DNA from: Actinophytocola algeriensis
GTDB lineage: Bacteria > Actinomycetota > Actinomycetes > Mycobacteriales > Pseudonocardiaceae
Assembly (NCBI RefSeq): GCF_014203735.1
Contig: NZ_JACHJQ010000018.1
Span: forward strand, 1-52,150
DNA length: 52,150 bases
Direction of reading: 5' to 3'
The stretch's first letter is position 1; every line of letters begins with the position of its first letter. The notes beneath the pieces are model-generated. The model searched no databases, was not told where the DNA came from, and saw only the letters and a program-made list of their open reading frames with translations. A program made the translations under genes and the position numbers. Below, piece after piece: positions 78-29,994 of the stretch.

Positions 78-92
78 CTTCGATACAGGCCC
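78..92. repeat. Probable terminal inverted repeat of the IS5-type element
   Basis: The sequence CTTCGATACAGGCCC lies just after the transposase stop and just before the first unique sequence of the cluster, which is where the right-hand inverted repeat of an IS5-type element should be. The reverse complement GGGCCTGTATCGAAG has the GGG-start form usual for this group. The matching left end is outside the window, so this is inferred from position and form. The following bases form the stop codon of the leftward proline-dehydrogenase-like gene, so the element lies directly at the end of that gene. Confidence 0.45.
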
Positions 93-1051
93 TAGTAGTC
101 GGCGCCGAAAACCACGCGGTCGGGTTCGGCGACGTCGGCCAGCGCGGTGATCGCCATCGGCGGGTGCTCGGCGACCCGGTGCAGCAGGTGCAGCCACCAG
201 TTCTCCCCGTAGGTCAGGTAGACCCGGCAGGAGTGGCCCTGTTCGCGGTGCGCGCGGAGCAGTTCCGGCCGCACCCCGTGCAGCATCTCGATCTCCTCGG
301 CTCCCGCCAGGACACCCGTCCGCGCGGCCTGTGCGAGCAGGCCGGCGTCGTGGGTGGCCAGCGCGACCCTGGCGCCACCCGCGATCGCGCGGGCGGCCAG
401 GTCGAGGTAGCGGGTGTCGAGTTCGGACCCGCGCGGCAGCGCGATCTCCGCCGGTTCGGCGTAGACGCCCTTGACCAGCCGGATCTTCGCGCCGGTGGCC
501 AGGACGGCGGGCAGGTCGTCCGCCGTGCGGTGCAGGTGCGCCTGGAGGGTGATGCCGACGTTGCGGTGGTCTCCGGCCAGCTTGGTGAACACACCGAGGA
601 CGTCGTCGACGAACGACGACCGCTCCATGCTGATGATGGCGTCGCTGCCGTGCTCGGCGGCGGCGTCGAGGATGCGGCCCGTGTTCTCCAGCGCCAGCTC
701 GGTGGACAGCAGCATGCCGACGTTCGACAGGTCGAACCCGAGCTGCACCGGGGCGGGCGAGCGCCGGACCAGTCCTATGTAGCCGGTGACGACGGCCTCG
801 ACCTCGGCGGGGTCGGTGATCTCCTCGCCGACCGCCTCGACCGAGATCCGGTAACCCTTGGCGCGCAGGGTGGCGGCGCGGTCGAGCAGTTCGTCCTCGG
901 TGGCGGCGGCGACATAGCGCCGGGCGGCGGGGGCCAGCAGCGCGCGCAGCAGCGAGTCCGGCTGGGCGAAGGCCGCGCGGCAGGCCGGGTCGGCGGCCAG
1001 GCCGCGCAGGCCCCGGCCCGCCAGGGCGAGTTCGGCGGCGGAGTGGGTCAT
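92..1051 (-). CDS. Proline dehydrogenase-like flavoenzyme, last gene of the leftward operon
   Basis: The 319-residue protein has the single-domain (beta/alpha)8 proline dehydrogenase form. Visible family motifs are RLVKGVYAEP (usual RxVKGAY), LATHD, IEMLHGV and VYLTYGENWW. Proline dehydrogenases oxidise proline to pyrroline-5-carboxylate with FAD. In the substrate-binding helix the usual YxxRR reads HLLHR: the Tyr and the first Arg, which contact the proline carboxylate region in E. coli PutA, are both His. This suggests a different substrate, perhaps a modified or bound amino acid. The ATG shares one base with the stop of the upstream desaturase (TGATG), so the two are translationally coupled. 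I infer a role in making or tailoring a building block. Confidence 0.85.
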   Translation of the reverse strand: MTHSAAELALAGRGLRGLAADPACRAAFAQPDSLLRALLAPAARRYVAAATEDELLDRAATLRAKGYRISVEAVGEEITDPAEVEAVVTGYIGLVRRSPAPVQLGFDLSNVGMLLSTELALENTGRILDAAAEHGSDAIISMERSSFVDDVLGVFTKLAGDHRNVGITLQAHLHRTADDLPAVLATGAKIRLVKGVYAEPAEIALPRGSELDTRYLDLAARAIAGGARVALATHDAGLLAQAARTGVLAGAEEIEMLHGVRPELLRAHREQGHSCRVYLTYGENWWLHLLHRVAEHPPMAITALADVAEPDRVVFGADY

Positions 1052-2295
1052 CAGGCTGCCTTCCGGTAGTCGATGTCGTCGGGCGGCTGCTCGTCGGACG
1101 GCTGCTTGCCGAACGGCAGCACACTGGACGGCTGCACGCCGGAAGCCTGCTCGTCGGACTGCTGCGCGGCGGACGGCTGCTCGCCGCTCCTCGCGGTGAT
1201 CATCATCAGTGTGGCGAAGCTCGGTCCGACGTCGGGTTCGCCGCCCGCGGACCGCCACTCGCGGTACTTGGCGGCGTAGCTGATCACCGTCTCCTTGTCC
1301 TTGCGGGCGGCGGGGCGGCTGAACACGCCCGCCCACATCCCGTCCCACATCGCGTACCCGGGGTCGTCCAGCAGGACCTTGTGCGCGTGGCGCAGGTTCC
1401 AGAACGGCACCCCGGTGTTGAGGTGGTGTACCAGGTGGAAGCGGTCGGCGTGCCTGCTCAGCAGGAACTGCTCCCAGCGCCTGCCGTGCCGGTTGCGGGT
1501 CAGGAGGACGCGCTTGGACTCGCCCTCCGGCATCGGGTAGTGCTCGGCCAACTCCGAGAGCCACCCGATCGCGACGCCCGAGGTGCACAGCGGGACGAAC
1601 CAGAACAGCAGCAGCTCGGGCAGCCAACCGAACCACGCGCACAGGCCGATGATCAGCGCCCACTCGGCGACCAGGATCAGCCGCTCGATCCGCAGCGGCA
1701 CCGGGGTGGAGATCTGCGGCATCGACGAGTTCGACCAGAAGCGCTCGCGGAACAGGTACTTCAGGTAGGAGAAGGTCCGCAGTCCGATCGCCGACAGGAA
1801 CACCTCGCGGATCACGAAGGCCCGGCTGGAGCGGTTGTGGTCGTAGAGGCCGCACTCGATGTGGAACCTGTAGTCCGGGTCGAGGTCGGCGTCACCGAGG
1901 TTGCGGTGGTGCAGGCCGACGTGTGTGTTGCGGTAGGGGCCCTGTAAGTGAAAGATCAGGTACCCGCTCAGCACTGTCCCACCGATGACGTTCAGCACGG
2001 AGTTGCGCGCGAAGGTCTTGTGCGAGGACTCGTGCAGCAGGTGCGCGAGGAAGCGGTGCGTCGACCCGATCAGGACCAGCGCCACCGGGTAGAACCAGTA
2101 GGACACACCGACGCACAGCGCCACGGACAACGCGATCACGGCGTACTCGAACGCGATGGCGAGCAGGCCGTGGAAGTTGTCCAGTTTGCACAGTTCCTTC
2201 AGGCCGCGCCGGACCTGTGGCGCCAACCGGTCGAAGCTGAGTTGCTCGGGGTGGCCCGGGCCATCCGGCCCCGTGGAGAACTCCCGTAACGGCAT
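1051..2295 (-). CDS. Membrane fatty-acid-desaturase-type oxygenase
   Basis: The 414-residue integral membrane di-iron protein has three histidine boxes: HLLHESSH (about 85-92), HVGLHH (125-130) and HLVHH (287-291). Hydrophobic segments lie at about 45-80, 100-117 and 205-245. The family desaturates or hydroxylates acyl chains and, in some natural-product pathways, amino-acid-derived substrates. The start follows a good ribosome site (GGAAGGA, 8 bases). It lies between the S9 peptidase and the proline-dehydrogenase-like gene, so a tailoring role is likelier than lipid housekeeping; a separate delta-9-type desaturase lies at 42982-43944. The C-terminal 40 residues are an unusual Gln/Pro/Ser-rich tail encoded by a 15-bp tandem repeat. 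Confidence 0.85.
   Translation of the reverse strand: MPLREFSTGPDGPGHPEQLSFDRLAPQVRRGLKELCKLDNFHGLLAIAFEYAVIALSVALCVGVSYWFYPVALVLIGSTHRFLAHLLHESSHKTFARNSVLNVIGGTVLSGYLIFHLQGPYRNTHVGLHHRNLGDADLDPDYRFHIECGLYDHNRSSRAFVIREVFLSAIGLRTFSYLKYLFRERFWSNSSMPQISTPVPLRIERLILVAEWALIIGLCAWFGWLPELLLFWFVPLCTSGVAIGWLSELAEHYPMPEGESKRVLLTRNRHGRRWEQFLLSRHADRFHLVHHLNTGVPFWNLRHAHKVLLDDPGYAMWDGMWAGVFSRPAARKDKETVISYAAKYREWRSAGGEPDVGPSFATLMMITARSGEQPSAAQQSDEQASGVQPSSVLPFGKQPSDEQPPDDIDYRKAA
1078..1182. repeat. Seven-unit 15-bp tandem repeat in the desaturase C-terminus
   Basis: Seven consecutive 15-base units are visible, for example GTCGGGCGGCTGCTC, GTCGGACGGCTGCTT and ACTGGACGGCTGCAC, giving exactly 105 bases. On the coding strand they specify a run of degenerate pentapeptides of the form xxQPS or DEQxx (GEQPS, AAQQS, DEQAS, GVQPS, SVLPF, GKQPS, DEQPP). 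The array lies beyond the third histidine box, so it should form a flexible cytoplasmic tail rather than part of the catalytic core. Confidence 0.85.
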
Positions 2296-2344
2296 TCTCG
2301 ATGTCCTTCCCAGACATGTGGCCCCGCCACCGCGGGGGACGCGG

Positions 2345-4273
2345 TCACAAATCGTCGGCCGGCGCGAACCCGAGGGCCCGGCCGTAGAGGTGCAGCTCGG
2401 CCCGCAGGCAACGGGCGGTGGTCGCGGCCCGGCGGAAGCCGTGCCCTTCGCCTTCGAAGGTCAGGTACTCGTGGTCGACGGAGGAGGCGGTCAGGCCCGC
2501 CAGGAGCCGTTCGGCCTGTGCGGGCGGGCACACCGTGTCGTCGAGCCCCTGGAAGAGCACCAACGGTGCGGTGATGCGCTCGACGTGGTGCACCGGTGAG
2601 CGGTCGCGGTAGACCTCGCGCCGGTCCGGCCACGGGCCGACCAGGCTTTCGAGGTAGCGGGACTCGAAGTCGTGGGTGCCCCTGGTGCGCCAGCCCTCCA
2701 GGTCGAGAACCGGGTAGTAGATGGCGGCGGCGTGGTAGAGGTCGGGTTCGGTGGTCAGCGAGACCACCGCGGTCCAGCCGCCCGCGCTGCCGCCGCGGAT
2801 CGCGATCCGGTTCGGCGTGGCGGTGCCGTCGGCGATCAGGCCGCGGGTGACGGTCGCGCAGTCGGCGACGTCGACCACGCCCCACTCGCCGCGCAGCCCG
2901 TCCCGGTAGGCGCGGCCGAAGCCGGTGGACCCCCGGTACTGCACGTCGACCACACCGATGCCGCGGCTGGTGAAGTAGGTGATCTCCTGGTTGCGGACGC
3001 GGTGGCTGCGGCTGGTCGGTCCACCGTGGACGAACACCAGGAACGGCGGCGGTTCGCCGTCCGGTGCGGTGAAGTCCGGGCTGTGCGGCGGATACACGTG
3101 TGAGTGCACCTCGACGCCGTCGGCGCCTCGGTCGGTGCGGTGCACCGGGACCGAGGCGAAGTCGTCGTGGCCGGCGGTCGCGGGTCGCAGTACGCGGGTC
3201 GTGCCCTCGGCGAGATCCACGAGCACGACGGCCCTGCGGTGGCGCGGCCCGGCGGCGACGACGGCGACCCTCGTGCCGTCCGTCGCCGGGTAGGCCCACT
3301 CGGTGTACGGGCTGTCGATGTCACGCAGCGAGCCGTCCGGGGACAGCACGCCGAGCGAGCGACCGCTGGTGCCGTGGATGACGGCGACGGAACCATCGGC
3401 CAACGGCAGTGCCCAGCGCAGCCCGATGCGCCACAGCGCCTCGCCGAACTCCTCCTCCCGCGCGCACAGGACCCGCGCGGCCCCGGTGGCCGGGTCGACC
3501 TCGTGGAGGTTCCACCAGCCCGCCGGGTCGCTGATCGCGTAGAGGGTGTCGGTCCCCACCGCCCAGTCCACCTGGGTCACCGAGACGCCATCGCCGCCGT
3601 GCGTCCGGCGGGGTTCACCGAGGGTGCCGTCCGGATTGATCCCGGCGACGACCAGGTCCGTGCTGTCCCAGGGCATCGCGGGGTGGTTCCACCCGAGCCA
3701 CGCGACCTGGGTGCCGCTGGGCGCCAGGCGCGGGCCGGTCATGAAGTCGTGGGTGGCGGCCAGCACGCGCACGGCCGACGGGTCGGTCGCGCCGGTGCCG
3801 TCCAGCGGTAGCGCGACCAGGTGCCGGGTGACCTTGGTGCACTCCGGGTCGAGCACGGTCTCCCGCAGGCACCACACCTCGGTGTCCCGCACGGAGAGGT
3901 CCGCGTGGCGCAGGGACGCCCCGTCGCCGACCGGGCTCAGCGGGACCGGCTCGGCGCCGGGAGTCCACCGGTACACGCGCTGGTCGGCGTAGTGCACGAA
4001 GACGACGCCGTCGCCTGCGGGCGCCCACGGCCTGCCGCCGTACTCGATCACCCGTGTGCGCACGTCCCAGCCGGGCAGCGCGTCGACGATGCCCTCACCG
4101 GTGTGGCGCATCAGCGCGTTGCGGCCGCCCTCGCCGGGGCGGACCTCGGTCCACCAGACCTCGTCGCCGACGAAGCCCAGCCATTCCACGAGGGCCTCGC
4201 CCGCGGCGACGTCGTCGGCGCCCACCGGCGATGGCCAGCTGCCATAGGGGGCCGTGTTGCGGACGTGGTTCAT
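2345..4273 (-). CDS. S9-family serine peptidase (prolyl oligopeptidase / dipeptidyl-peptidase type)
   Basis: The 642-residue protein has an N-terminal beta-propeller-like region (about 1-380) and a C-terminal alpha/beta hydrolase domain. The triad is visible: nucleophile Ser about 496 in GGSAGGW, Asp about 578 in GLDDTVCPP and His about 611 in GEGHGF. An HGGPTSR motif (about 415) forms the oxyanion region. Family members cleave short peptides, often after proline or release N-terminal dipeptides. No signal peptide is visible, so it should be cytosolic. Placed between the dipeptide epimerase and the desaturase in a peptide-ligase cluster, it may trim a protected precursor, activate the product or hydrolyse it for self-protection; the sequence does not decide. 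Confidence 0.88.
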   Translation of the reverse strand: MNHVRNTAPYGSWPSPVGADDVAAGEALVEWLGFVGDEVWWTEVRPGEGGRNALMRHTGEGIVDALPGWDVRTRVIEYGGRPWAPAGDGVVFVHYADQRVYRWTPGAEPVPLSPVGDGASLRHADLSVRDTEVWCLRETVLDPECTKVTRHLVALPLDGTGATDPSAVRVLAATHDFMTGPRLAPSGTQVAWLGWNHPAMPWDSTDLVVAGINPDGTLGEPRRTHGGDGVSVTQVDWAVGTDTLYAISDPAGWWNLHEVDPATGAARVLCAREEEFGEALWRIGLRWALPLADGSVAVIHGTSGRSLGVLSPDGSLRDIDSPYTEWAYPATDGTRVAVVAAGPRHRRAVVLVDLAEGTTRVLRPATAGHDDFASVPVHRTDRGADGVEVHSHVYPPHSPDFTAPDGEPPPFLVFVHGGPTSRSHRVRNQEITYFTSRGIGVVDVQYRGSTGFGRAYRDGLRGEWGVVDVADCATVTRGLIADGTATPNRIAIRGGSAGGWTAVVSLTTEPDLYHAAAIYYPVLDLEGWRTRGTHDFESRYLESLVGPWPDRREVYRDRSPVHHVERITAPLVLFQGLDDTVCPPAQAERLLAGLTASSVDHEYLTFEGEGHGFRRAATTARCLRAELHLYGRALGFAPADDL

Positions 4274-4318
4274 CGGTGGCCGGTCCCTTTCGCTGTCGAT
4301 AGCCCGCTGGAGGCGGTG

Positions 4319-5320
4319 TCAGTAGGCGATGCGCGGCACGCCGGGGGCGGAGCTGTCGAGCCGGTAGGACATGACCGACGGGTCGCCGGTCAGCCAGAAG
4401 TGCCCGTCGAGGTCGGTCCACTCGCACAGGCCGACCAACTGCGCGGCGTAGGCGATGGCGCGGGGTGGTTCGAGGAAGCAGCCGAGCATCCTGGTCGCGC
4501 CGCGGGCGCCGAGGTCGGTGAGGACCCGGTGTCCTGGCAGCAGCCCGCCCAGCCGCATGAGCTTGGTGTTGGCGCCGTCCGCGACGGCCACGGCGGCCTC
4601 GACGTCGGCGACGGTGTTGACGCCCTCGTCCAGGATGACCTTGGTGTCCGGGAGCGCGGCGCGGACCTCGGCGAGCAGGTCCCGGTCGTGCACCGGGTCC
4701 TCCAGCACCGCGGGCGCGATCTCGGTGACCAGGTCGCGCAGGCGCCCCCAGTCCCGCGCGTCCCAGCCGCGGTTGACGTCGAGGATGATCGGACCCGGGA
4801 CGCCGACGAGCCCGCGCAGGACCACGTCGTCGTCGGGGCCGCCGAGCTTGATCTTCACCGGGCGGGTGCCCGCCGGGATCTCCTCGCCGATCGGCACGGT
4901 GTGCAGCAGGCGCACCGTCCCCGGTGCCGGCAGGTCGAGCAGCCGCCAGACCGGCACGCCCGCGCGCCGGGCGGCGCGGTCGAGGAACGCCATCTCGACC
5001 AGCATCCTGGCCGGTCCGGACGCGTGTTCGCCCACCTGGTCCAGCGCGGCGACGAGCTCGGCCGGGGTCAGCTGACCGCGGTCGGCCACCGCGCGGGCCA
5101 TGGCGGCCGCCTCGGTGCCGATCACGGTGGCGTCCTGGCCGTAGCCGAGGTCGGCGGCGATCTCGCCGTCGCCGACGTGCCCGTCCCCGGTGTCGCCGAG
5201 GGAGAGCCGGACGATGTCGACCGTCTCGATGGTCATGTGCGAGATCTCGAACGAGCGCGGTAGCGGCAGCGGCTCGACGGTGAGGTCGACGGTCCCGTCG
5301 GCCGGTGTGGTGGTCGTCAT
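4319..5320 (-). CDS. Enolase-superfamily dipeptide epimerase
   Basis: The 333-residue protein belongs to the muconate-lactonizing subgroup. The active site is complete: K156-x-K158 in VKIKLGG, metal ligands D181 (DVN), E207 (LEDP) and D231 (LDEG), and the opposing catalytic K253 (NTKLMRLGG). A D303-x-D305 motif near the C-terminus is the feature that binds the alpha-amino group of the dipeptide in L-Ala-D/L-Glu epimerases. It should epimerise the second residue of a dipeptide. Its stop-start junction with ATP-grasp A is an ATGA overlap (5317-5320), so it is co-translated with a peptide ligase. I infer that a ligase-made dipeptide is its substrate, introducing a D-residue without an NRPS epimerisation domain. 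Confidence 0.85.
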   Translation of the reverse strand: MTTTTPADGTVDLTVEPLPLPRSFEISHMTIETVDIVRLSLGDTGDGHVGDGEIAADLGYGQDATVIGTEAAAMARAVADRGQLTPAELVAALDQVGEHASGPARMLVEMAFLDRAARRAGVPVWRLLDLPAPGTVRLLHTVPIGEEIPAGTRPVKIKLGGPDDDVVLRGLVGVPGPIILDVNRGWDARDWGRLRDLVTEIAPAVLEDPVHDRDLLAEVRAALPDTKVILDEGVNTVADVEAAVAVADGANTKLMRLGGLLPGHRVLTDLGARGATRMLGCFLEPPRAIAYAAQLVGLCEWTDLDGHFWLTGDPSVMSYRLDSSAPGVPRIAY

Positions 5321-6561
5321 CGCACGTCCACCGCCGGGGCGATGGTGAAGCGCACCGCGTCGACGAGCTTCGCGGCGAGCGCGCGGGCCTCGGCCGGGGT
5401 GTCCGCGCCGACGACGATCACGCCGACCCGGTCCTCCCCGTTGTGGAACGGGCGGATCTCGTCACCCTCCCCCACCGACAGCTCGGCGTGCACGACCGCC
5501 GGGTGCGAGCTGGCCGACTCCCAGCCGGTCACCGACAGCACCCGGCCCGGTGGCGGCGCGAAGTAGCGCGCGGCGGCGGCGCGGGCCACGATGACGGGAC
5601 CGGGCTCGGTGGCGCCGAGGACGTCGTCGTACACCAGGCCGTAGAGCTCCAGGCCGGGGATGGCGTGTTCGAGCATCTTGTGGATCCACCCGCCGCCGAC
5701 GCGCACGTGGACCTCGCCGATCACCACGCCGCGCTCGGTCAGCCACAGCTCGACGTGGAAGAGCCCGAAGGTCAGCTCCAGCGCGCGCAGCGCCGCCAGC
5801 ACCTCCCGCTCGATGCGCTCGGTGTCGGCCGCCGGAAGGTCGGCGGGCAGGACGTGCCCGATCTCCACGAAGTACGGCGGCGGGAGCTTCTCCTTGGCGG
5901 TGACCGCGAAGACCCTCGGCTCGCCGCGGAGGAAGACGCCCTCCACGCTGAACTCCGGACCGTCCACGAACTCCTCGATGAGGAACTCCTCGGGGTTCGG
6001 CAGCGCCTCGACGGCGTCGCGCAGCTCGGCGACCGCGGTCACCTTGCGGACACCGTCGCTGCCGGACCCGTCGCGGGGCTTGACGACCCAGGGGCCGTCG
6101 GTGCCGAGGGTGAACTCCTCCGCGTCGGCCAGGCAGGCGCACAGGCGCACCGCGGGCTGCGGGAACCCGGCGGCGGCCAACGCCGCACGGCCGTCGTCCT
6201 TGGTGCGCACCCGCCGCACGGCGTGCGGTGGGTTGCCCGGCAGGCCGAGGACGTGCGCGGTCTCGGCGACGGCGACCTGGGCCATCTCCCGCACGCCGAA
6301 CACGACGTCGAACCCACCGGGTCGCTCGGCGGCCCACGCCGCCACCGCGCCGGCGGTCCCGTGGTCCACGACCGACCCCTCGTTCGCGGCGGCCGCCACC
6401 GAGGGCGTGGCCGCGAAAGTGGTCTCCTGGTTGGTCACGTGCGTGGCGAGGCCGCGGTCGGCCGCCTGCCGCAACGCCGCGATCGCGACGTCCACGCTCA
6501 GCGACATGTCTCCCGCCCCGCCGACCAGCAGCAGGCGGCCGGGTTCGCGTTCGGTGGTCAT
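5317..6561 (-). CDS. ATP-grasp ligase A
   Basis: The 414-residue ATP-grasp protein has a nucleotide-binding segment VVKPRDGSGSDGV (about 157-170), an FLIEEFVDGPEFS segment and a metal-binding strand VVIGEVHVRVGGGW in which the usual ExN reads E-x-H. Such enzymes activate a carboxylate as acyl phosphate and join it to an amine. It is the most divergent of the larger ATP-grasp proteins here, with an extended N-terminal domain beginning LLLVGGAGDMS. The start has a strong ribosome site (GAGGAGG, 6 bases). It is immediately upstream of, and overlaps, the dipeptide epimerase, which suggests that it makes the epimerase's dipeptide. The substrates cannot be read from the sequence. Confidence 0.85.
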   Translation of the reverse strand: MTTEREPGRLLLVGGAGDMSLSVDVAIAALRQAADRGLATHVTNQETTFAATPSVAAAANEGSVVDHGTAGAVAAWAAERPGGFDVVFGVREMAQVAVAETAHVLGLPGNPPHAVRRVRTKDDGRAALAAAGFPQPAVRLCACLADAEEFTLGTDGPWVVKPRDGSGSDGVRKVTAVAELRDAVEALPNPEEFLIEEFVDGPEFSVEGVFLRGEPRVFAVTAKEKLPPPYFVEIGHVLPADLPAADTERIEREVLAALRALELTFGLFHVELWLTERGVVIGEVHVRVGGGWIHKMLEHAIPGLELYGLVYDDVLGATEPGPVIVARAAAARYFAPPPGRVLSVTGWESASSHPAVVHAELSVGEGDEIRPFHNGEDRVGVIVVGADTPAEARALAAKLVDAVRFTIAPAVDVR

Positions 6562-6589
6562 GCTCGACCTCCTCGGTGCTCGAGCGCGG

Positions 6590-7843
6590 TCAGCGCAGCC
6601 GGTAGACGCGGTCCTTGAGCTCCTGCACGCGCTCGTAGTCGCGCTCGAGCTGCTCGGCCGAGTCGGTGCCCAGGTGCACCGCCAGGGTGCTGGTGTAGAG
6701 GTCGATGGTCGGCTTGATCCGGCTGCCCGGCTTGAGCTTGACCCGCAGGTGCCGCACCGAGGGCAGGGCTTCGATGTCGGCGACCACGTCCTCGTCGATG
6801 CTGTCGACCACGCCGTCCAGCTCGGTCGGGGTGATCACCATGCAGCCGTACAGGAGCCGCTGGTAGCGCCGGTCCGCGTAGCGGTCGAGGAACTCCTGCG
6901 GGCGGACCGCGGCGAGGGCGGTCAGGTCGGCCTGGTTCGCCCCGCAGCACGCGTCGTTGTACGCGGGCACCACACCACCGGTCATCCGGGCGCCGACCTC
7001 CACCAGCGTGGGGCCGTGCTCGGTGCGGATGACCTCGGCGTGGGTCGGGCCGTAGTCGATGCCCAGCGCGTCCAGCGCGGAGGAGGTGTAGGCGATCAGC
7101 TCCGCGACCTCGGGCGAGTCCGGGTCCTGGATGTCGTCGCGGTCGTAGATGTTGTGCACGTCCACCAGGCGCTTGCGGTACTTCCACACCGCGCTCGTGT
7201 AGCGGCGCCCCCCGTGCGACACCATGTCCACCGAGTACTCGTCGCCGGCCAGGTAGGACTGGACGAGCACCTCGCGGTTGGGGTCCTCGAAGATGGTGGA
7301 CGCGCCGAGCACGGCCTCGGCGGCCTTGCGGACCTGCTCCGGGGAGGTGCAGATCGCCACGCCGTCGGTCGCGGCCGAGGCGAGCGGCTTCACCACGACC
7401 GGGTAGGCGCCCCTGGTCTCGGCCCAGGCCACGATGTCCTCGGCGGCACCGCTCTTGAACTGGTCGGCGCACCGCACGCCCGCCTGGCGCAGCGCCTCGA
7501 TCATCTCGTACTTGTCCCGCCGCGCCCGCGACTTGTCGCTGCCGTTGCCGGGCAGCCCGAGCAGCTCGTTGAGCCGGTCGGTCCACTCGACCCCGGGCTC
7601 CTGCCCGGTGACGACGGCGACCGGCGCGAACGCGGCGAGCTCGGCCGCGGCCTCCTCCGGGGTCGCGCACACGACGTTGGCCCGGTAGGCGCTCAGGTCC
7701 GGCAACATCATCGAGGTCATCATCTCGATGCTGCTCTGCACGTGGACCACATCCGCGCCTGCTCGCGCGAACGCGGGAGGCAGGTGGTTGCCCGAGGTGT
7801 ACCCGTCGACGATCACGGCGACCGGGCGCGGTTGTCCAGACAT
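6590..7843 (-). CDS. ATP-grasp ligase B (BacD-like amino-acid ligase)
   Basis: The N-terminus VAVIVDGYTSGNHLPPAF, the core PVVVKPLASAATDGV and the metal-binding strand LVEVGARMTGG mark a BacD-like L-amino acid ligase. It is a clear paralogue of ligase B' at 24222-25499, colinear along its full length and ending in the same KDxVYRLR/E motif. I chose the ATG at 7843 because the paralogue starts at the equivalent point; a GTG at 7891 that overlaps the upstream stop (GTGA) would add 16 residues and cannot be excluded. The product should be a peptide bond formed at the expense of ATP. It lies between the Asp/Asn-hydroxylase-like gene and ligase A, so a hydroxylated amino acid is a plausible substrate. 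Confidence 0.88.
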   Translation of the reverse strand: MSGQPRPVAVIVDGYTSGNHLPPAFARAGADVVHVQSSIEMMTSMMLPDLSAYRANVVCATPEEAAAELAAFAPVAVVTGQEPGVEWTDRLNELLGLPGNGSDKSRARRDKYEMIEALRQAGVRCADQFKSGAAEDIVAWAETRGAYPVVVKPLASAATDGVAICTSPEQVRKAAEAVLGASTIFEDPNREVLVQSYLAGDEYSVDMVSHGGRRYTSAVWKYRKRLVDVHNIYDRDDIQDPDSPEVAELIAYTSSALDALGIDYGPTHAEVIRTEHGPTLVEVGARMTGGVVPAYNDACCGANQADLTALAAVRPQEFLDRYADRRYQRLLYGCMVITPTELDGVVDSIDEDVVADIEALPSVRHLRVKLKPGSRIKPTIDLYTSTLAVHLGTDSAEQLERDYERVQELKDRVYRLR

Positions 7844-22551: not shown

Positions 22552-23330
22552 GCGCCCAACCCGTGAAAGGCGCACCCGTGACCTGGCTGCGCGGCATCGA
22601 CCCCAGGCCCGGCGCCGAGACCGTCCTCGTGTGCTTCCCGCACGCGGCCGGGTCGGCCTCGTTCTTCCGCGACTGGGCCGGGGACCTGCCCGACGTCGAC
22701 CTGCACTCGGTCCAGTACCCCGGCCGGGCCGACCGGATGGCCGACCCGCTGCCGACCGACCTGGTCGAGATGGCCAGGGGGGTGCGCGAGTCGCTGGAAC
22801 CGTTGCTGGAGCGGCCGATCGCGCTGTTCGGCCACAGCATGGGCGCGATCGTGGCGTTCGAGGTCGCGCGCATGCTGGCGGCCGACGGCGCGCGGGTGCC
22901 GCACCTGTTCGTCTCGGGCGCGCGGGCCGCGCACGACCCGGACCACGCACCGGCCGGGGCCGCGCAGCGCGGTGACGAGAGCATCATGCGGTCGCTGGCC
23001 AAGCTCGGCGGCACGCACGCCGAACTGCTCGACGACCCGCTGCTGGCCGAGCTGGTGATGCCCTACGTGCGCGCGGACTTCGTCATGTTCGAGCGGTACC
23101 AGTACGTGCCCGGCGCGAGCCTGACCTGCCCGGTGACCGCGATCAACGGCGACGAGGACTCCCACTGCACCGAGGACCGGACCCGCCGGTGGAGCGAGCT
23201 GACCTCGGCCGGGTTCGCCCAGCACGTGTTCCCCGGTGAGCACTTCTACCTGATCCAGCATCCCCCGTTCGGGATCATCCGCGCCGCGCTCGGCACCGGC
23301 GTGCGCGGCCAGGCCGCCCCGTCCACCTGA
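22548..23330 (+). CDS. Type II thioesterase
   Basis: The 260-residue alpha/beta hydrolase of the RifR/GrsT type has FPHAAGSASFF near the N-terminus, nucleophile GHSMGA and a C-terminal GEHFYL His. Such enzymes remove misprimed acyl groups from carrier domains; no type I thioesterase is fused to any synthetase here, so this one may also release the chain. The ATG overlaps the A-T stop (ATGA). A GTG at 22579 with GAAAGG upstream would give a protein ten residues shorter. Confidence 0.92.
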   Translation: MSAQPVKGAPVTWLRGIDPRPGAETVLVCFPHAAGSASFFRDWAGDLPDVDLHSVQYPGRADRMADPLPTDLVEMARGVRESLEPLLERPIALFGHSMGAIVAFEVARMLAADGARVPHLFVSGARAAHDPDHAPAGAAQRGDESIMRSLAKLGGTHAELLDDPLLAELVMPYVRADFVMFERYQYVPGASLTCPVTAINGDEDSHCTEDRTRRWSELTSAGFAQHVFPGEHFYLIQHPPFGIIRAALGTGVRGQAAPST

Positions 23331-23350
23331 TCGGCGACCCCGGAGGAAAC

Positions 23351-24184
23351 GTGAGGATCACCGCGCCGGTGCGCCGGCTCGATGTCGGCGACCTGACCGC
23401 GTGCCTGGACCTCGGCGCGGACCGCGGCTGGCCGCGCGAGGAGCACAAGTGGCGGTTGCTGTTCGCCGTGGGCCAGGTCAACGGCATCGACGACCCGGAA
23501 GGCGGGCTCGCCGCGGTGGTCGTCGGCGCGCCCTACGGCACGGCGGTCACGGCGATCAGCATGATGCTCGTCGCCCGCAAGCACGAGCGGACCGGTCTTG
23601 GCAAGCGGGTGCTGGCGCACACGCTGGCGCAGACGGGCACCGAGAGCGCGCTGCTCACCGCCACCCCGATGGGCAAGCCCCTGTACGAGTCGGTGGGGTT
23701 CCGCACGATCGGCCGGTGCTCGACCTACAGCGGCACGCCAACCGGGGTGCGGGCGGCCGGGATCTCCCGCCCGTACACCGACACCGACGCGGCCGCTGTG
23801 TCCATTGTGGACACCGAGGTGTTCGGCGCCGCTCGCAAGGAGTTGACGGCCGCGCTGCCCGGCTTCGCGAGCGCGCTGCGGGTGGTCGACGCCCCGGGCG
23901 GGATCACGGGGTTCGGCGCGGCATGGCCGAACATCGACCAGACGGTCCTCGGCCCGGTGACCGCCGAGGACGCCGAGGACGGACTGGGCCTGCTGTCCGA
24001 CCTGGCCGCCACCGCTCCCGGCGAGGTGCGGCTGGACATCGACCACCGGCAGCCGCGGGTCCTGGCCTGGGCCGAGGCGCACGGCCTCCAGCACCGGTTC
24101 ACCACGGCGATCATGGTTCTCGGACCGGACATCCCCGGTGACCCGGCGCGTTCGTTCACCCCGGTCATGCTCGCCCTGGGCTGA
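23351..24184 (+). CDS. GNAT acetyltransferase 1
   Basis: The 277-residue protein has an N-terminal GNAT core (acetyl-CoA loop RTGLGKRV at about 80-87, then YESVGF) and an extra C-terminal domain of the type seen in two-domain GNATs of actinomycetes. The GTG start follows GGAGGAA. It lies between the thioesterase and ligase B' in the same direction. It probably acetylates an amine of an intermediate or the product, as tailoring or self-protection; the substrate is not visible. Confidence 0.85.
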   Translation: MRITAPVRRLDVGDLTACLDLGADRGWPREEHKWRLLFAVGQVNGIDDPEGGLAAVVVGAPYGTAVTAISMMLVARKHERTGLGKRVLAHTLAQTGTESALLTATPMGKPLYESVGFRTIGRCSTYSGTPTGVRAAGISRPYTDTDAAAVSIVDTEVFGAARKELTAALPGFASALRVVDAPGGITGFGAAWPNIDQTVLGPVTAEDAEDGLGLLSDLAATAPGEVRLDIDHRQPRVLAWAEAHGLQHRFTTAIMVLGPDIPGDPARSFTPVMLALG

Positions 24185-24221
24185 CCCCGTTCCCGTCCCA
24201 CCCAGCGAAAGCGATGACCTG

Positions 24222-25499
24222 ATGACCGGTGCCACCCCCCAGCCCACCGCCGTGATCGTCGACGGCTACTCCACGGGCAACTTCCTTCCCGCGGCGTTCG
24301 CCCGGCTGGGCGTCCGCGTCGTGCACGTGCGCAGCACCGCCGAACTGATGGCCTCGATGCTGCCGCCGGCGATGGCCGACTACGACGCCGAGTACGTCTG
24401 CGCCGGCGACGACGCGTTCGAACGGGTCTGCGCCGAGTTGTCCGCACTGGGACCGGTCGCGGTGCTCGCGGGTCAGGAACCCGGCGTGCCGCTGGCCGAC
24501 GCGATCAGCGAACGGCTCGGCCTGGCCACCAACGGATCCGCGCTGTCGCGGGCTCGCCGCGAGAAGTACGCGATGATCGAGACCCTGCGCGCGGCGGGCA
24601 TCCACTGCGCGGAGCAGGTGCTCGTGACCAGCGCGGCCGACGCGGTGACCTGGGCGGAGGGCCGAGGCGACTACCCGGTGGTGGTCAAGCCGCTGAGCTC
24701 GGCGTCGTCGGACTGCGTCAGCGTGTGCCGCGACGCCGCCGAGGTGGCCGCGGGCGCGGCGGCGGTGCTCGCCGCGGTCGACATCTTCGACCGGCCCAAC
24801 ACCGAGGTCGTCGTCCAGTCGTTCCTGTCCGGCACGGAGTACATCGTGGACTCCGTCTCGGTCGACGGCGCGCGTTTCGTCTGCGGCGTGTGGGAGTACG
24901 ACAAGACCACCACGCCCGAGGGCAAGCGGATCTACGACCGCGACATCCTGCTCGACCCGGACGAGCCCCCGGTCCCCGACCTCGTCGCCTACCTCGACAC
25001 GGTGCTCGCCGCGCTCGGCATCGTCAACGGTCCCGCGCACGCCGAGGTGATCGTCACCCCGGACGGCCCGGCGCTGGTCGAGATCGGCGCGCGGCTCAAC
25101 GGGAACATGAACCCCGGCTTCCACGACGTGTGCCTCGGTGCGAACCAGGCCGACCTGATCGCCCTGGCCTACGCGCGACCGGACGAGTTCACCGAGCGCT
25201 ACGCCGGCCGCGTCTACACCCGCCGCGCGCCCGCCGTCGTGCACAGCACCACCACCACGTTCGACGGTGTGGTGGCCGAGGTCGACCAGGCCGTGGTCGC
25301 CGCCATCGCCGAGTTGCCGAGCGTGTACCTGGTCGGGGTGAAGCTGGCGCCCGGCAAGCGGATCCGGCCGACCGAGGACCTGCTGACCAGCCCGCTGCGG
25401 ATCTTCATGACCGCACCGGACACCACCGACCTGGACGTCGACTACAAGACGATCCAGACCCTGAAGGACCAGGTCTACCGGCTCGAGGAGCAGCCATGA
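24222..25499 (+). CDS. ATP-grasp ligase B' (paralogue of B)
   Basis: The 425-residue BacD-like ligase starts TAVIVDGYSTGNFLPAAF, with PVVVKPLSSASSDCV as the nucleotide-binding region and LVEIGARLNGN as the metal-binding strand. It aligns end to end with ligase B at 6590-7843, but the substrate-side residues differ (GARLNGNMNPG against GARMTGGVVPA), so the two probably use different amino acids. I chose the ATG at 24222; an upstream in-frame extension overlapping the GNAT has no support. Its stop overlaps the start of ligase C' (ATGA at 25496-25499), so B' and C' are made together. Confidence 0.9.
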   Translation: MTGATPQPTAVIVDGYSTGNFLPAAFARLGVRVVHVRSTAELMASMLPPAMADYDAEYVCAGDDAFERVCAELSALGPVAVLAGQEPGVPLADAISERLGLATNGSALSRARREKYAMIETLRAAGIHCAEQVLVTSAADAVTWAEGRGDYPVVVKPLSSASSDCVSVCRDAAEVAAGAAAVLAAVDIFDRPNTEVVVQSFLSGTEYIVDSVSVDGARFVCGVWEYDKTTTPEGKRIYDRDILLDPDEPPVPDLVAYLDTVLAALGIVNGPAHAEVIVTPDGPALVEIGARLNGNMNPGFHDVCLGANQADLIALAYARPDEFTERYAGRVYTRRAPAVVHSTTTTFDGVVAEVDQAVVAAIAELPSVYLVGVKLAPGKRIRPTEDLLTSPLRIFMTAPDTTDLDVDYKTIQTLKDQVYRLEEQP

Positions 25500-26818
25500 G
25501 CCGACGCGTCCCGGTCCTGTGCCTCAACGCCGACAAGTACGTCCTGGAGGTGTGCGAGCGGCACGACGTCGAACCGGTCGTCGTCATGGGCAACGGCATG
25601 TACGACTTCGGCCTGATGCACGTCCCGGACGGCGTCCGGGTGCTCCGGGCCGCTGACGTCGTCAACCCGGAGTCCGTCCTGGGCGCGCTGCACCGCGCGG
25701 GCCTCGGCGACCACGCCTTCGCCGCGGTGCTCACCAGCGACGAGCAGGCGGTGGTCAGCGCGGGCGTCCTCGGCGGCCACCTCGGCGCCAGGGCGATCGA
25801 CCCGGGGACCGGCCTGCTGTTCCGGGACAAGTACCTCCAGAAGGTCCGGATCGCGGCGGCGGGCCTGCCCACCGCGCGCGCCACGGTCATCGACGACATC
25901 TACGACGTCTCGGCGGTCACCGAGCTGCCCTACGCCCGCGCGGTCCTCAAGCCCGTGGCCGGGCTGGCGACCCTCCAGACCTCGGTGATCACCAGCGTGG
26001 ACGCGTTGCGGGCCAAGAGCACGCGGTTCCGCCGGGAGCGGATCGCGGAGCGCACCTTCGTGCTGGAGGAGTACGTCGACGGCGACGAATGGGTCGCCGA
26101 CGGCATCGTCTTCGACGGCGAGGTCGTGTTCTTCGCGCTGGGGACCTACGCCACGCCGTGCCTGACCGCGGTGGACAACGGGTTGCCACTGCGGCTGCGG
26201 CGGTTCGACCCGGAGCGCGAGAGCTGGGCCTACGAGCGTGGCGAGCCGACCGTGCGTGCCGCCATCGCCGCGCTCGGCCTGCGCGACGGCGCGTTCCACC
26301 TGGAGATGTTCCACGACCCGGCCACGGGGGTGCTGACCTTCGGTGAGTGCGCCGCCCGCCGCGGCGGGGCGCTGATCCACGAGGAGATGCAGGCCAAGTT
26401 CAACGTGCACATGGGTGAGGCCACGTTGCTCAGCGGCCTCGGCCGCCGCCCCGCGATCGACGTCAAGATCCGCCCCGGCGCGGTCGGCGGCGCGTACCTG
26501 CTCGGCCGGCCGGGAACGTTCATCCACTGCCCCTCCCCGGCCGAGATGCTGGAGCTGCCCGGGGTCGAGTACGTGCGCATCGAGTTCGCGTTCGGCACCC
26601 AGCTCGGCGACGAGGTGGGCAGCACCAACGACCGGATCGGGCAGGTGCTCGTGGCCGCCGACTCCGAGGACGCCCTCGAACGCAGGCTCGCCGAGGTGAT
26701 CGCGTGGTTCGACGAGCGGCTGATCATCGCGCCCTACGGCGTGCCGATGCGCGAGCAGCGGGCGTGGCAGCGGGCCACCTGGCCGAAGGACGACTTCCGG
26801 GACCCGCTGTGGCGTTAG
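25496..26818 (+). CDS. ATP-grasp ligase C' (paralogue of C)
   Basis: The 440-residue ATP-grasp protein starts VPVLCLNADKYVLEVC, with AVLKPVAGLATLQTSV, FVLEEYVDGDEWVADGI and TFGECAARRGGALIHEEM in the same order as ligase C (9726-11066). The two share most of the C-terminal half almost residue for residue, so they are clear paralogues. In C' the gene is fused by overlap to B', whereas C is separated from B by the exporter and the dioxygenase. It should make an amide bond at the cost of ATP. The B-type/C-type pairing on both arms suggests that the two ligase types act in sequence. Confidence 0.9.
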   Translation: MSRRVPVLCLNADKYVLEVCERHDVEPVVVMGNGMYDFGLMHVPDGVRVLRAADVVNPESVLGALHRAGLGDHAFAAVLTSDEQAVVSAGVLGGHLGARAIDPGTGLLFRDKYLQKVRIAAAGLPTARATVIDDIYDVSAVTELPYARAVLKPVAGLATLQTSVITSVDALRAKSTRFRRERIAERTFVLEEYVDGDEWVADGIVFDGEVVFFALGTYATPCLTAVDNGLPLRLRRFDPERESWAYERGEPTVRAAIAALGLRDGAFHLEMFHDPATGVLTFGECAARRGGALIHEEMQAKFNVHMGEATLLSGLGRRPAIDVKIRPGAVGGAYLLGRPGTFIHCPSPAEMLELPGVEYVRIEFAFGTQLGDEVGSTNDRIGQVLVAADSEDALERRLAEVIAWFDERLIIAPYGVPMREQRAWQRATWPKDDFRDPLWR

Positions 26819-26825
26819 GCGACCC

Positions 26826-28064
26826 GTGAACGTCCCCACGCCCGCACGTGACGGGCTGCGGCGACTCCTGCTCGCGCTGTTGTTCAGCGAGTTCGGCTTC
26901 CGGATCATGGTGCTGGCGATCCCGCTGATCGCGGTGACGGAGCTGCACGCGACGCCGTTGCAGATCAGTGTGATCGCCGCCTGCCAGACCGGGGCGTTCC
27001 TGCTCGTCGGGCTGCCCTCGGGCGCGATCGTGGACCGGTTGCGCCGCAGGCGGGTCATGGTCGTCAGCGATCTGGTTCGCGCCGCGGTCCTGGTCACGCT
27101 GCCGCTGATGTGGCTCTCCGGCGGGATGTCGGTGCCGTACCTGTGCGTCGCGTCGATCGCGCTCGGCGTCTGCACGGTGTTCTTCGACGTCGCCAACCAG
27201 ACCTACCTGCCCAGGCTGGTCGGACCGGACCAACTGGTCGCGGCGAACTCCAGGCTCGTGGTGATCGACTCGGTGGCCGGCACGCTCGGCCCCGGTGCGG
27301 GCGGTCTGCTCATCGAGCGGCTGACCGCGCCGTTCGCCACGGTGCTCGGCGTCGCCGGGTGGCTGTGGTCGGCGCTGTGCGTCTCGCGCATCCGCGACGA
27401 CGACCCCAAACCGGAACGGCGCGCCGACACCCACCTGCGCCGCGACATCGCCGACGGGGTGCGCGCGATCGTGACCGACCCGCTGCTGAGGCCGATCGCG
27501 CTGTGCTCCACCACGCTCACCTTCTTCTGGGCGGTCGCCGGGACCATGCTGATCGTGCTCATGGCGGGCACACTCGGCGCGACGGCGACGACGATCGGCG
27601 TGGTGTTCGCCGTCGGCAACGCGGGCGGGATAGCGGCGACGCTGGTGGTGCGCAGGCTGATCGACCGGGTCGGCGACGGCGTGGCGATCCGGTGGAGCAT
27701 CGCGGTGTGCGGCCCGTGCACGCTGCTGGCACCGCTGGCCGGACCAGGGTGGCGGGTGTGGTTGATCGCGGCGGCGTCGTTCGCGCTCAGCGCCGGTCTG
27801 GTGGTCTACAACGTCGCCCAGGTCAGCTACCGGCAGCGAACCGTGCCCGCCGACCTGCTCGGCCGGGTCAACGCGACCATCCGGTTCTTCGCGTGGGGCG
27901 CCCGGCCGCTCGGCGCGCTGTGCGGCGGGCTCATCGCCGCCGTCCTCGGCATCCGCTGCGCGGTGTGGGTCGGTGCGGCCGGCACCTCCCTCTCCGCGCT
28001 CTGGCTCTACCTCTCTCCGCTCCGCACCCTGCGCCATCTCCCGGTGCCCGCAGGCACACCCTGA
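26826..28064 (+). CDS. MFS exporter 2
   Basis: The 412-residue protein has about 12 membrane segments and the loop motif GAIVDRLRRRRVMVVSD. It resembles actinobacterial MFS exporters of the EntS-like group. The GTG start is seven bases after the ligase C' stop. It is not obviously paralogous to exporter 1 at 8497-9735, so the cluster carries two different exporters. A role in export or self-resistance is inferred from position. Confidence 0.87.
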   Translation: MNVPTPARDGLRRLLLALLFSEFGFRIMVLAIPLIAVTELHATPLQISVIAACQTGAFLLVGLPSGAIVDRLRRRRVMVVSDLVRAAVLVTLPLMWLSGGMSVPYLCVASIALGVCTVFFDVANQTYLPRLVGPDQLVAANSRLVVIDSVAGTLGPGAGGLLIERLTAPFATVLGVAGWLWSALCVSRIRDDDPKPERRADTHLRRDIADGVRAIVTDPLLRPIALCSTTLTFFWAVAGTMLIVLMAGTLGATATTIGVVFAVGNAGGIAATLVVRRLIDRVGDGVAIRWSIAVCGPCTLLAPLAGPGWRVWLIAAASFALSAGLVVYNVAQVSYRQRTVPADLLGRVNATIRFFAWGARPLGALCGGLIAAVLGIRCAVWVGAAGTSLSALWLYLSPLRTLRHLPVPAGTP

Positions 28065-28080
28065 CCCGAAAGGACCTCCG

Positions 28081-29016
28081 GTGGACATCGTCTGGATCTC
28101 CCACCCGGACAACTACCGTCCGGCGACGCTGCAAGGCATCGGCGCGGGTGCGCAGGAACGGCTCGACCTGTTCGCCGAGCACGGGCACACCCTGCGCGTC
28201 GTGCAGTCGCACCTGATCGTCCCCGGCTGGGCAGGCGGACCGCGCCTGTGGGTCGGCGACGAGGACCTGCTCGACGAGCGTCGCGGGTTCATGGTCACCG
28301 GCTGGACCTGGGACGCCGCGGCGGCCACGCACATCAGCGCGATCTCCCGCGCCATCCGCGCGTCCTCGTCGGTGTTGCTGACCGACGGCATCCTCGACCC
28401 GGAGCGGCTCGGCAGCGACAAGCTCGCGATGTACCACTTCGCGGGCGAACGCGGCGTCCCCGTGCTGCCGACGGTGTCGGTGCCCTACGGCAGGCACGCC
28501 GGCGCGGCGCTGGAACAGGTGACCCGGCACCTCGACGCGGACGGCTACGTGGTGAAGCCGAGGGAGATGGCCAGGGGCTTCGGCGTGCTGAAGGTCGACA
28601 CCATCGAGCAGCTGTCGGCGACCGTCGACCTGCTCACCCCGGGCGCGCTCGGGTGCGTCATACAGCCGTACTTCGCCAACTCCGGCGACCTGCGCGTGTA
28701 CGTGCACCGCGGTGAGGTGATCGCCGGGCTGCTGCGCAAGCCCGCGGCGGGTAGCTACCTGGCCAACGTGAGCCAGGGCGGGTCCGGCTCGGCGATGTCG
28801 GTGCCCTCGGAGATCCGCGAGCACAGCGAGCGCCTCGCCCGCGACCTGGAGAGCCCGTACCTGTGCATCGACTGGCTGCTGTCGGACGCGGGCCCGGTGT
28901 TCAACGAGTGGATGACCGTGTCCGCGGCGTTCGAGAACCTGCCTGAACCGGAGAAGACCAGGGTGTCCGACGCGTTGTTCGCGACCATCGCCGACCGCCT
29001 CGCCGCGGGCGAGTAA
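28081..29016 (+). CDS. ATP-grasp ligase E (RimK-like, compact)
   Basis: The 311-residue protein is the shortest ATP-grasp of the window. YVVKPREMARGFGVLKV is the nucleotide-binding loop, VIQPYFANSGDLRVYVHRGEVIAG matches the RimK-type hinge and central strands, and VFNEWMT supplies the metal-binding acid and Asn in the order N-E. The family adds amino acids to carboxyl groups of peptides or small molecules. The GTG follows AAAGGA at 6 bases, 17 bases after the exporter. It may carry out a late ligation on a formed peptide; this is inference. Confidence 0.83.
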   Translation: MDIVWISHPDNYRPATLQGIGAGAQERLDLFAEHGHTLRVVQSHLIVPGWAGGPRLWVGDEDLLDERRGFMVTGWTWDAAAATHISAISRAIRASSSVLLTDGILDPERLGSDKLAMYHFAGERGVPVLPTVSVPYGRHAGAALEQVTRHLDADGYVVKPREMARGFGVLKVDTIEQLSATVDLLTPGALGCVIQPYFANSGDLRVYVHRGEVIAGLLRKPAAGSYLANVSQGGSGSAMSVPSEIREHSERLARDLESPYLCIDWLLSDAGPVFNEWMTVSAAFENLPEPEKTRVSDALFATIADRLAAGE

Positions 29017-29028
29017 GGGGCCGCCGCC

Positions 29029-29994
29029 GTGACCGGATCCCCTGCGGTGGAGTACCGGCTCCTCGACCCGAGCGACGGCCAGGCGGTGGCGGCCTGGCTG
29101 GTGCTCGTGGCCGAGGGCGCAGGCGACAGCCCCGACGACCCACCACCGTGTCCCAAGGACGTCGCCGGGTCGCTGCGGTACCCGCCGCCGGGGATCGAGC
29201 TGGCCGATTGGCTGGCGTACCGCGGCGGCGCCCTCGTCGGCACCCTGCGCCTGGCCTTCGACACCGGGGCGACCGGCGCCCGCGTCGACCGCCTGCTGGT
29301 GCACCCGTCCCACCGCCGCCGGGGCGTCGGGCGCGGCCTGCTCGCGCTGGCCCGCACCGAATGCCGCGACCGCGTCGACCTGACCGCACTGGTGCCCGAC
29401 CCCGGCACGGCCTTCGCCGCGGCCGCCGGCGCGACCCGACTCGACGGCGCGTACCTCCGGATGCGCCTGGACCTGGCCCACGACCTGCCCGCCGCGCCAC
29501 CCCCCGCCCCCGGGTATCGCCTGGACGCCTGGGAGAACCATGCGCCCGACCACCACGTCCTCGCCGCCGCCTGGCTGGAACGCACCCTTGGCGACGACGC
29601 CGTGGCCCCGCAGGACGAACCGGTCGACACCAGCTACCTGCGCGCCCTGGAACGCATGCGCACGGGCCGCGGCAGGCACGCGTACCACATCGGCGCGGTC
29701 CACGAGGCCACCGGAACGCTGGTCGGATACACCAACATCACCACGATCGAGGGCAACCCCGACCACCTGTACCAGGGCATGACGGTTGTGCACCACGCCC
29801 ACCGCGGCCACGGCCTGGGCCGGACGCTGAAGCTGACCAACACCACCAACGCCCGCCGCGACCACCCCGCGGCCAGGTACATGGACACGACCAACAGCGC
29901 CACCAACCACCCGATGAAGGCCCTCAACGAGTCGATGGGCTACGTGGTCCGCGACCAACTGGTCCCCTGGCACCTCCCCACTGCGACTACCTAG
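29029..29994 (+). CDS. GNAT acetyltransferase 2 (tandem GNAT)
   Basis: The 321-residue protein has two GNAT halves. The first has VDRLLVHPSHRRRGVGRGLL and the second has MTVVHHAHRGHGLGRTLKL, both with the R/Q-x-x-G-x-G acetyl-CoA loop. This double-GNAT form is common in antibiotic clusters, for self-resistance or tailoring. It is the last gene of the rightward operon. Its TAG stop (29992-29994) is the first part of the TAGTGCTGTG terminus of the dispersed repeat that follows, so the present C-terminus may have been set by that insertion. Confidence 0.85.
   Translation: MTGSPAVEYRLLDPSDGQAVAAWLVLVAEGAGDSPDDPPPCPKDVAGSLRYPPPGIELADWLAYRGGALVGTLRLAFDTGATGARVDRLLVHPSHRRRGVGRGLLALARTECRDRVDLTALVPDPGTAFAAAAGATRLDGAYLRMRLDLAHDLPAAPPPAPGYRLDAWENHAPDHHVLAAAWLERTLGDDAVAPQDEPVDTSYLRALERMRTGRGRHAYHIGAVHEATGTLVGYTNITTIEGNPDHLYQGMTVVHHAHRGHGLGRTLKLTNTTNARRDHPAARYMDTTNSATNHPMKALNESMGYVVRDQLVPWHLPTATT

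Follow-up and report, generated by a model that had tools for sequence, protein, structure and literature searches.

Peptides made by ligases are generally regarded as being two or three residues long, and among the described systems the nearest to the locus considered here are DdaF, the dapdiamide A synthase, and RizA, the rhizocticin ligase, which makes Arg-X. For the carrier-bound part of the locus, the nearest are CmlA, the 8a90 diiron monooxygenase and the bleomycin-type beta-hydroxyhistidine module; the code for beta-hydroxyhistidine is used in bleomycin, and bleomycin clusters are, to our knowledge, large non-ribosomal peptide synthetase (NRPS) and polyketide synthase (PKS) systems without such ligases. 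The window, which is the whole of contig C18 (52,150 bases) of the Actinophytocola algeriensis genome (9.73 Mb in 23 contigs), contains seven ATP-grasp genes together with C-A-T-T, KS-AT-ACP and A-T synthetases, a dipeptide epimerase, a peptidase, two hydroxylases (Asp_Arg_Hydrox and CmlA), two MFS exporters and two GNAT proteins, in two divergent operons, as a preliminary description made from the sequence had stated. Three further genes of the cluster were not named there: g01 (PRODH-like), g02 (GntB-like) and g15 (a thioesterase). On balance, the locus appears to be a single cluster for an uncharacterised hybrid peptide, in which a carrier-bound core is combined with a carrier-free peptide containing a D-residue; the best reading of the core is that it would contain (beta-hydroxy)histidine, the histidine being predicted, and one malonyl unit.

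The minus-strand operon (92-11066, g09 to g01) and the plus-strand operon (11546-29994, g10 to g21) have gaps of -10 to +49 bases between their genes and are separated from each other by about 480 bases. The sharing of operons suggests that the carrier-free and carrier-bound parts may serve one product.

Several types are present among the seven ligases. AG1 (g05, 5317-6561, minus) is an L-amino acid ligase (LAL) of the BL00235 kind, with matches to LAL_C2 (PF18603, 9.6e-23), PF13535 (2.9e-20) and 3vot (2.1e-21). AG2 (g06, 6590-7843, minus, with a start at 7843 or 7891) and AG5 (g17, 24222-25499, plus) are DdaF-like, AG3 (g09, 9726-11066, minus) and AG6 (g18, 25496-26818, plus) are RizA-like, AG4 (g11, 13187-14443, plus) is of the NRPS-neighbour type, and AG7 (g20, 28081-29016, plus) is like RimK and glutathione synthetase. 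AG2 and AG5 are paralogs (53% identical), as are AG3 and AG6 (65%). The PF13535 cut-off is passed by four of the seven (5317, 6590, 13187 at 2.2e-08 and 24222 at 9.2e-10), and AG7 passes those for RimK (PF08443, 33.7 bits, cut-off 21) and GSH-S (PF02955, 29.7, cut-off 23). The genes at 9726 and 25496 score under the Pfam cut-offs, and a profile of the two with locus L021 (L-labels are individual loci) matches RizA (4wd3) at 6.9e-30 over about 335 positions. When aligned, the six LAL-type ligases retain the lysines and the H.E ... E...R motif, and AG7 retains the lysines, its final motif aligning poorly; we take the lysines to serve ATP binding and the acidic residues metal binding. The retained motifs argue against the ligases being degenerate duplicates.

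AG2 is over the PRK07206 cut-off (330 bits, cut-off 302) and matches DdaF and 30vh (6.9e-60) over nearly the full length, but at 197.1 against 840 bits it falls short of the NF041595 cut-off for dapdiamide A synthase. RizA is given as specific for N-terminal arginine in the excerpt available of PMC9321006. At the position aligned to RizA D376, a single site where local identity is low, g09 has Ala, g18 has Asp and seven Streptomyces AG3 halves have His. As this position is not conserved in AG3, AG6 and their relatives, an arginine specificity of AG3 is not supported by this one site.

The preliminary description had considered the number of ligases to be unusual. Six of the ten PF13535 matches in the host genome (E<=1e-3) fall within a 21-kb part of the cluster, and at E<=1e-5 the window has four within 20 kb. 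A match at E<=1e-5 is found in 91 of 198 genomes of the phylum, the host included, and among the matches listed for these, read by eye, there are elsewhere at most three within 15 kb (in G991; G-labels are the genomes of relatives, with a and b for separate loci of one genome). Loci with four or five ATP-grasp domains do exist elsewhere, however: a local hidden Markov model search finds five in G060, G061, G062, G064, G631, G665, G730 and L028, four in G073 and in G063, where a contig end cuts the locus, and three in G275 and G065 (also cut). One of the five in G665 is weaker and carboxylase-like, and G730 and L028 each include one weak domain. The "ATP-grasp" proteins of 650-656 amino acids in G190, G149, G204 and G220a are biotin-carboxylase-like and not ligases, as judged by a scan of the G190 copy, to which the others are 87-89% identical. 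Operon packing, clustering and co-inheritance argue against the ligases having come together by chance or belonging to unrelated primary metabolism.

Downstream of AG1 on the minus strand is g04 (4319-5320), a dipeptide epimerase of the enolase superfamily (MR/MLE), with 1jpd as the nearest solved structure (5e-17). The KxK, D.N, E, DE, K and DLDG residues, which we take to include the metal ligands and a second catalytic lysine, are retained in 8/8 aligned proteins. In this it resembles L-Ala-D/L-Glu and other dipeptide epimerases; it differs from them in that Streptomyces members of this cluster family have the epimerase and an amino acid ligase in one protein. In the excerpt of PMC13338154, dipeptide epimerases are treated in connection with valine epimerisation and amino acid ligases are cited; the two are presumably combined artificially in that work.

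The other enzymes of the minus-strand operon are a proline-dehydrogenase-like flavoenzyme, a peptidase and two hydroxylases. The flavoenzyme, g01 (92-1051; Pro_dh, PF01619, 2.4e-17), has 79% identity to its G073 counterpart and 58-63% to those of G060, G061, G063, G064 and G631. It lies beside g02 (1051-2295), a membrane hydroxylase of the fatty-acid-desaturase type (PF00487, 4.2e-26) with three HxxxH-type motifs present in 8/8 proteins compared. The nearest named family of g02 is GntB, the L-arginine gamma hydroxylase of guanitoxin, which it matches over nearly the full model length with 289.5 bits, under the NF041365 cut-off of 380. The S9 prolyl-oligopeptidase family peptidase g03 (2345-4273; PF00326, 1.6e-45) has a GGSAGG motif that is found in 4/4 proteins compared. 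The Fe(II)/2-oxoglutarate enzyme g07 (7888-8460; AspH, the Asp/Asn beta-hydroxylase type, PF05118, 6.3e-06) has 90% identity to that of G073, and its HxD motif is present in 9/9. The first MFS exporter, g08 (8497-9735; PF07690, 1.3e-19), lies between g07 and AG3.

At the start of the plus-strand operon is g10 (11546-13177), which has CmlA_N (PF18456, 4.6e-60) and a metallo-beta-lactamase-like domain and aligns over nearly its full length with 8a90 (2e-107) and with CmlA (4jo0, 3.4e-90); it differs from these in that the module near it is predicted to load His. This module, g12 (14481-17870), is a C-A-T-T protein by its Pfam domains, with HHIVTDG and two FFDVGGHSL motifs, and its two tandem T domains are near-identical (62 of 72 residues the same). 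The PKS g13 (17867-20770) is a KS-AT-ACP protein with its Pfam domains and active-site motifs. Its AT motif is HAFH, presumably of the malonyl type, and since there is no reductase domain the ketone should stay. The A-T protein g14 (20767-22551; Pfam) has an A-domain code that reads by eye as DTLHVCSVAK, and g15 (22548-23330; PF00975, 2.6e-43) is a stand-alone thioesterase with GHSMG and GEHF motifs. The motifs of the A, C, T, KS, AT, ACP and TE domains are all intact, in keeping with a hybrid NRPS/PKS.

At what we take to be the code positions, the A domain of g12 reads DSALIAEVWK, so that g12 is predicted to load histidine. This code is placed among those of His-activating domains, with the beta-hydroxy form accepted, in the excerpt available of PMC12283262. 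It is the same in five of the seven Streptomyces-type clusters described below, with Val for Ile at one position in the other two (G063 and G064), and in G220b; the codes of G084b and G187 are only partly read. In 10/10 relatives looked at, the His module lacks HHxxxDG, the C-domain motif, and a C domain with this motif is at the end of a separate A-T-C protein in 4/4 relatives looked at, whereas in the window the C domain is at the front of g12 and the A-T is separate as g14. Both layouts therefore contain A-T, C, A(His)-T, KS-AT-ACP and TE. In the relatives a P450 adjoins the A-T-C protein, where the window has CmlA instead, for which BLAST gives no match among the genes of the relatives; both enzymes may hydroxylate a carrier-bound amino acid. 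The A-T-C code in Streptomyces-type G060, by eye, is DALWMGGVFK, which is linked to L-allo-Ile domains in the excerpt of PMC13122637.

An AG1 match at E<=1e-40 is present in 24 of 390 genomes of the window's family, the host included, and there is none in the five other genomes of the window's own genus. From nine AG1-matching genomes 11 loci were fetched, leaving out G183 and G186 (about 60% identity) and weaker ones; 54 loci were obtained when 84,980 genomes were scanned with an AG3 alignment. Genes in the relatives were called with a caller trained on the window genes, and their starts are approximate. Comparison of these loci suggests that the cluster may consist of three layers. The first, which is co-inherited, has AG1, AG2, AG3 and AG5 with the dipeptide epimerase, the S9 peptidase, two hydroxylases and an exporter. 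The second is the KS-AT-ACP, A(His)-T and thioesterase core, which is found again in other loci alongside one to five ligases. The third, the additions in the window, comprises AG4, AG6, AG7, CmlA, the A-T and the GNAT proteins.

The first two layers are found together in seven Streptomyces-type clusters (G060-G065 and G631), of which G062, G063 and G065 are truncated at contig ends. In the AG3 scan, much of the cluster is common to L022-L027 and L042, six of them titled Streptomyces and one (L024) Actinobacteria bacterium OV450, with several cut by contig ends. In a sample of 392 genomes from the genus to which G060 belongs, eight have an AG3 match at E<=1e-60; the cluster is present in G060, G063, G065 and G631, and other neighbourhoods surround AG3 in G440, G665, G730 and G538. 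The window and the Streptomyces family share 13 genes. In the window, genes are split and the order is rearranged, there is CmlA and not P450, and the aminotransferase and the A-T-C protein are missing.

AG1 is fused to the epimerase in all six of the Streptomyces-type clusters whose contig covers it (G065 does not), and AG5 is fused to AG3 in 7/7, the window's AG5 having 65-70% identity to the N-terminal half of the latter fusion. The fusions suggest that the members of each pair act on each other's product: AG1 may pass a dipeptide to the epimerase, and AG5 and AG3 may act sequentially. Structure predictions were too poor for use, both for the AG1-epimerase fusion (mean predicted local distance difference test score 58.0, with five rows as input) and for AG7 alone (36.5).

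A tree was built from 71 rows of LAL-type ligases, AG7 excluded. In each of its AG1, AG2, AG3 and AG5 groups the window has G073 as its sister (support 100/99 or 100/100) and the rows from Streptomyces make up one clade, as would be expected for a co-inherited set. In the AG3 group, L028, G440, G665 and G730 are placed, with weak support, on the same side as the window. AG6 joins the pair of g09 and the G073 AG3 with support of 100/98, which indicates that the copy arose before these two diverged. AG4 and the fifth ligase of Streptomyces, AG8, are on long branches and their placement is unsure.

In G073, PRODH, the GntB-like protein, S9, the epimerase, AG1, AG2, AspH, MFS1, AG3 and AG5 are present at 77-90% identity, together with a class-V aminotransferase. 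G220b, G084b and G187 have the KS-AT-ACP (55-56%), A-T (52-55%) and TE (46-48%), AG1, an A-T-C protein and a P450, with two LAL-type ligases each. The same NRPS/PKS core is on a linear plasmid of Streptomyces sp. NBC_00158 (L148 1562-24586), with a P450, S9 peptidase, TauD, cupin, MFS and YcaO-like gene and at least one ATP-grasp gene among the genes listed, about 4 kb from the P450.

Several of these observations weigh against a single hybrid product. The 40 kb fetched from G073, a single-contig genome, contain no NRPS/PKS gene, and the best KS match anywhere in that genome is 43%; G084b, G187 and NBC_00158 have the NRPS/PKS core without most of the first layer. The two layers may thus serve separate products. 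Nothing close to AG4, AG6 or AG7 is present in G073 or among the Streptomyces clusters read, so that these three ligases may do other jobs. In addition, g02 is under the GntB cut-off, the class-V aminotransferase is absent from the window (the best match in the host genome is 33%), the D376-aligned residue varies, and the substrates are not readable from the ligase sequences.

Two side-by-side pathways, one for a carrier-free oligopeptide (the minus-strand operon and AG5) and an independent NRPS/PKS, with only location and export in common, would account for the separation in G073 and for the NRPS/PKS cores of NBC_00158, G084b and G187 with one or two ligases. This is rather unlikely, as in Streptomyces genes of the first two layers follow each other on the same strand (AG5-AG3, MFS, AspH, A-T, KS-AT-ACP, TE), AG5 to AG7 are downstream of g12 to g15 in the window, and in G220b a single run has KS-AT-ACP, A-T and TE with AG5 and AG1 directly behind. 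The interpretation put forward in the preliminary description is upheld in part. Its hybrid logic is supported, since the ligase and NRPS/PKS genes share an operon and co-occur in the seven Streptomyces-type clusters, G220b and, by annotation, NBC_01006, but the four core ligases have no NRPS/PKS gene near them in G073, so that part of the ligase set would be a separable carrier-free pathway.

AG3 is next to an MFS exporter of the g08 family in otherwise different loci (L028, L030, L031, L037, G440, G665 and G730). L030 has the public label Candidatus Melainabacteria, which looks wrong, as it appears to be contig C809 of G016, a genome placed in the window's family. The recurrent pairing, and the presence of an S9 peptidase also in the NBC_00158 locus, would suit self-protection, in which several ligases add or change caps instead of building the backbone; a residue added by a ligase would give an inactive form that is exported by an MFS protein and uncapped outside by the S9 peptidase. 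Five to seven ligases are not needed for this, and the AG1-epimerase and AG5-AG3 fusions fit chain building better, which makes this reading unlikely.

For a single hybrid product, we infer the substrates, the order of the steps, the release and the roles of the peptidase and GNAT proteins from what the sequences contain, namely the genes themselves, intact motifs, operon packing, co-inheritance and fusions. The A-T protein g14 would load an amino acid, g13 would add one malonyl unit, unreduced, and g12 would bring in histidine; g10 would hydroxylate a carrier-bound amino acid and g15 would release the product. In parallel, and carrier-free, AG1 would join two L-amino acids, g04 would invert one residue of the dipeptide, and AG2, AG5, AG3 and the copy AG6 would append further residues, one building block probably being a hydroxylated basic amino acid from g02 and g01. 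AG4 and AG7 may join or cap the halves, the MFS proteins would export the product, and the S9 peptidase would trim or activate it. A more far-reaching form of this proposal, which is tentative and somewhat doubtful, would be a third assembly logic, with the ligases in series as a carrier-free elongation line that connects end to end to an NRPS/PKS core of one ketide, the ligase-epimerase pair being a D-residue module, the two-ligase protein a dimodule, and all seven ligases acting on one product. A conserved group of four to seven ligases with a carrier-bound core would extend the length and complexity possible for carrier-free peptides, and the natural ligase-epimerase fusion would serve to make D-residues. 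That the cluster family has Streptomyces members lets the hybrid idea be tested genetically.

The statement in the preliminary description that NRPS/PKS pathways usually carry no ligases of this type is too strong for the window's family. Relatives of AG4 (34-48% identity) are present in 26 other genomes of the family, with an NRPS-like gene adjoining in 5/5 loci fetched. Relatives of AG7 (39-41%) are in six other family genomes, all six loci of which were fetched; in four (L162-L165) there are NRPS-like genes within the 20-kb stretch, while L166 is a 4.7-kb contig, and L161 has three AG7-like genes in tandem (12044-15052) beside an MFS2-like gene. AG4 and AG7 look like later recruits to the cluster. 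In two genomes, L170 (3-14608) and L171 (7069-19999) have a KS-AT / C-A NRPS-PKS of about 2,400-2,600 amino acids, cut by the ends of the stretches, accompanied by a class-V aminotransferase-like gene, an AG4-type ligase, an A-T and a thioesterase.

By annotation, the gene set of the Streptomyces-type clusters is also carried by Streptomyces sp. NBC_01006, on a linear plasmid of 570 kb, where the genes have generic names. Consistent with the earlier failure to recognise a known pathway, no description of this gene set was found in the open-licence literature, as judged by titles and the starts of abstracts; this literature takes in few subscription papers and no curated cluster databases. It is improbable, given these generic names and that nothing fitting is among the titles and abstract starts listed, that the pathway is already known from a paper or cluster entry elsewhere, although curated cluster databases and most subscription papers, where such an entry might be, fall outside the search.

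AG1 is also found in other settings. In G190, G149, G204 and G220a it belongs to a different set, which is conserved (85-97% identity to the genes of G190) and which in G190 includes a biotin carboxylase and a carboxyltransferase; AG1 is thus also used elsewhere. In L111 (9788-18982) an AG1 ortholog adjoins biotin carboxylase and carboxyltransferase genes of this set. It is in yet other settings in G084a, G109 and G275. Another ligase cluster, near the end of a linear plasmid of Streptomyces sp. NBC_00891 (L144 11572-25424), has an AG1-like ligase along with genes for an amidinotransferase, a TauD, a cupin-like protein and an SDR.

The class-V aminotransferase is beside PRODH in G073, G060, G061, G063, G064, G631 and the NBC_01006 plasmid. 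The contig begins right beyond the g01 stop (1-92), and as the window spans the whole of C18, its left edge is the end of the assembly. The cluster may be cut on this side, and the aminotransferase gene may be missing from the assembly left of g01. Elsewhere in the host genome there is neither a close aminotransferase, as noted above, nor an A-T-C protein (best match 40%).

The longest frame of g09 extends to 11528, with G+C content at third codon positions of 0.60-0.68 over its first 150 codons against 0.93-0.94 beyond codon 200; this low 5' value, and the G073 ortholog beginning MDQM, place the start at 11066 or 11057. Promoters in actinobacteria often depart from the sigma-70-like consensus. 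No sigma-70-like sites were found in the divergent gap, nor were any repeats, and Rfam at the gathering threshold matched no RNA element in the window. A tRNA-Arg called by ARAGORN at 17809-17906 straddles the coding overlap of g12 and g13 and is probably a false positive.

The remaining genes of the plus-strand operon are g16 (23351-24184), a GNAT acetyltransferase with two GNAT regions (PF18014, 8.5e-20; PF13673, 3e-05), the second MFS exporter, g19 (26826-28064; PF07690, 1.4e-35), and g21 (29029-29994), a GNAT acetyltransferase with two GNAT stretches (PF00583, 2.2e-17). To the right of the cluster (30723-43944) there are genes for an epoxide hydrolase, a WYL regulator, a DUF3558 protein, a BTAD/NB-ARC regulator, a flavin monooxygenase and a second fatty-acid desaturase. 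These are followed at 44462-47740 by an extracytoplasmic function (ECF) sigma factor and an Asp23-family gene, which are apparently unrelated to the cluster.

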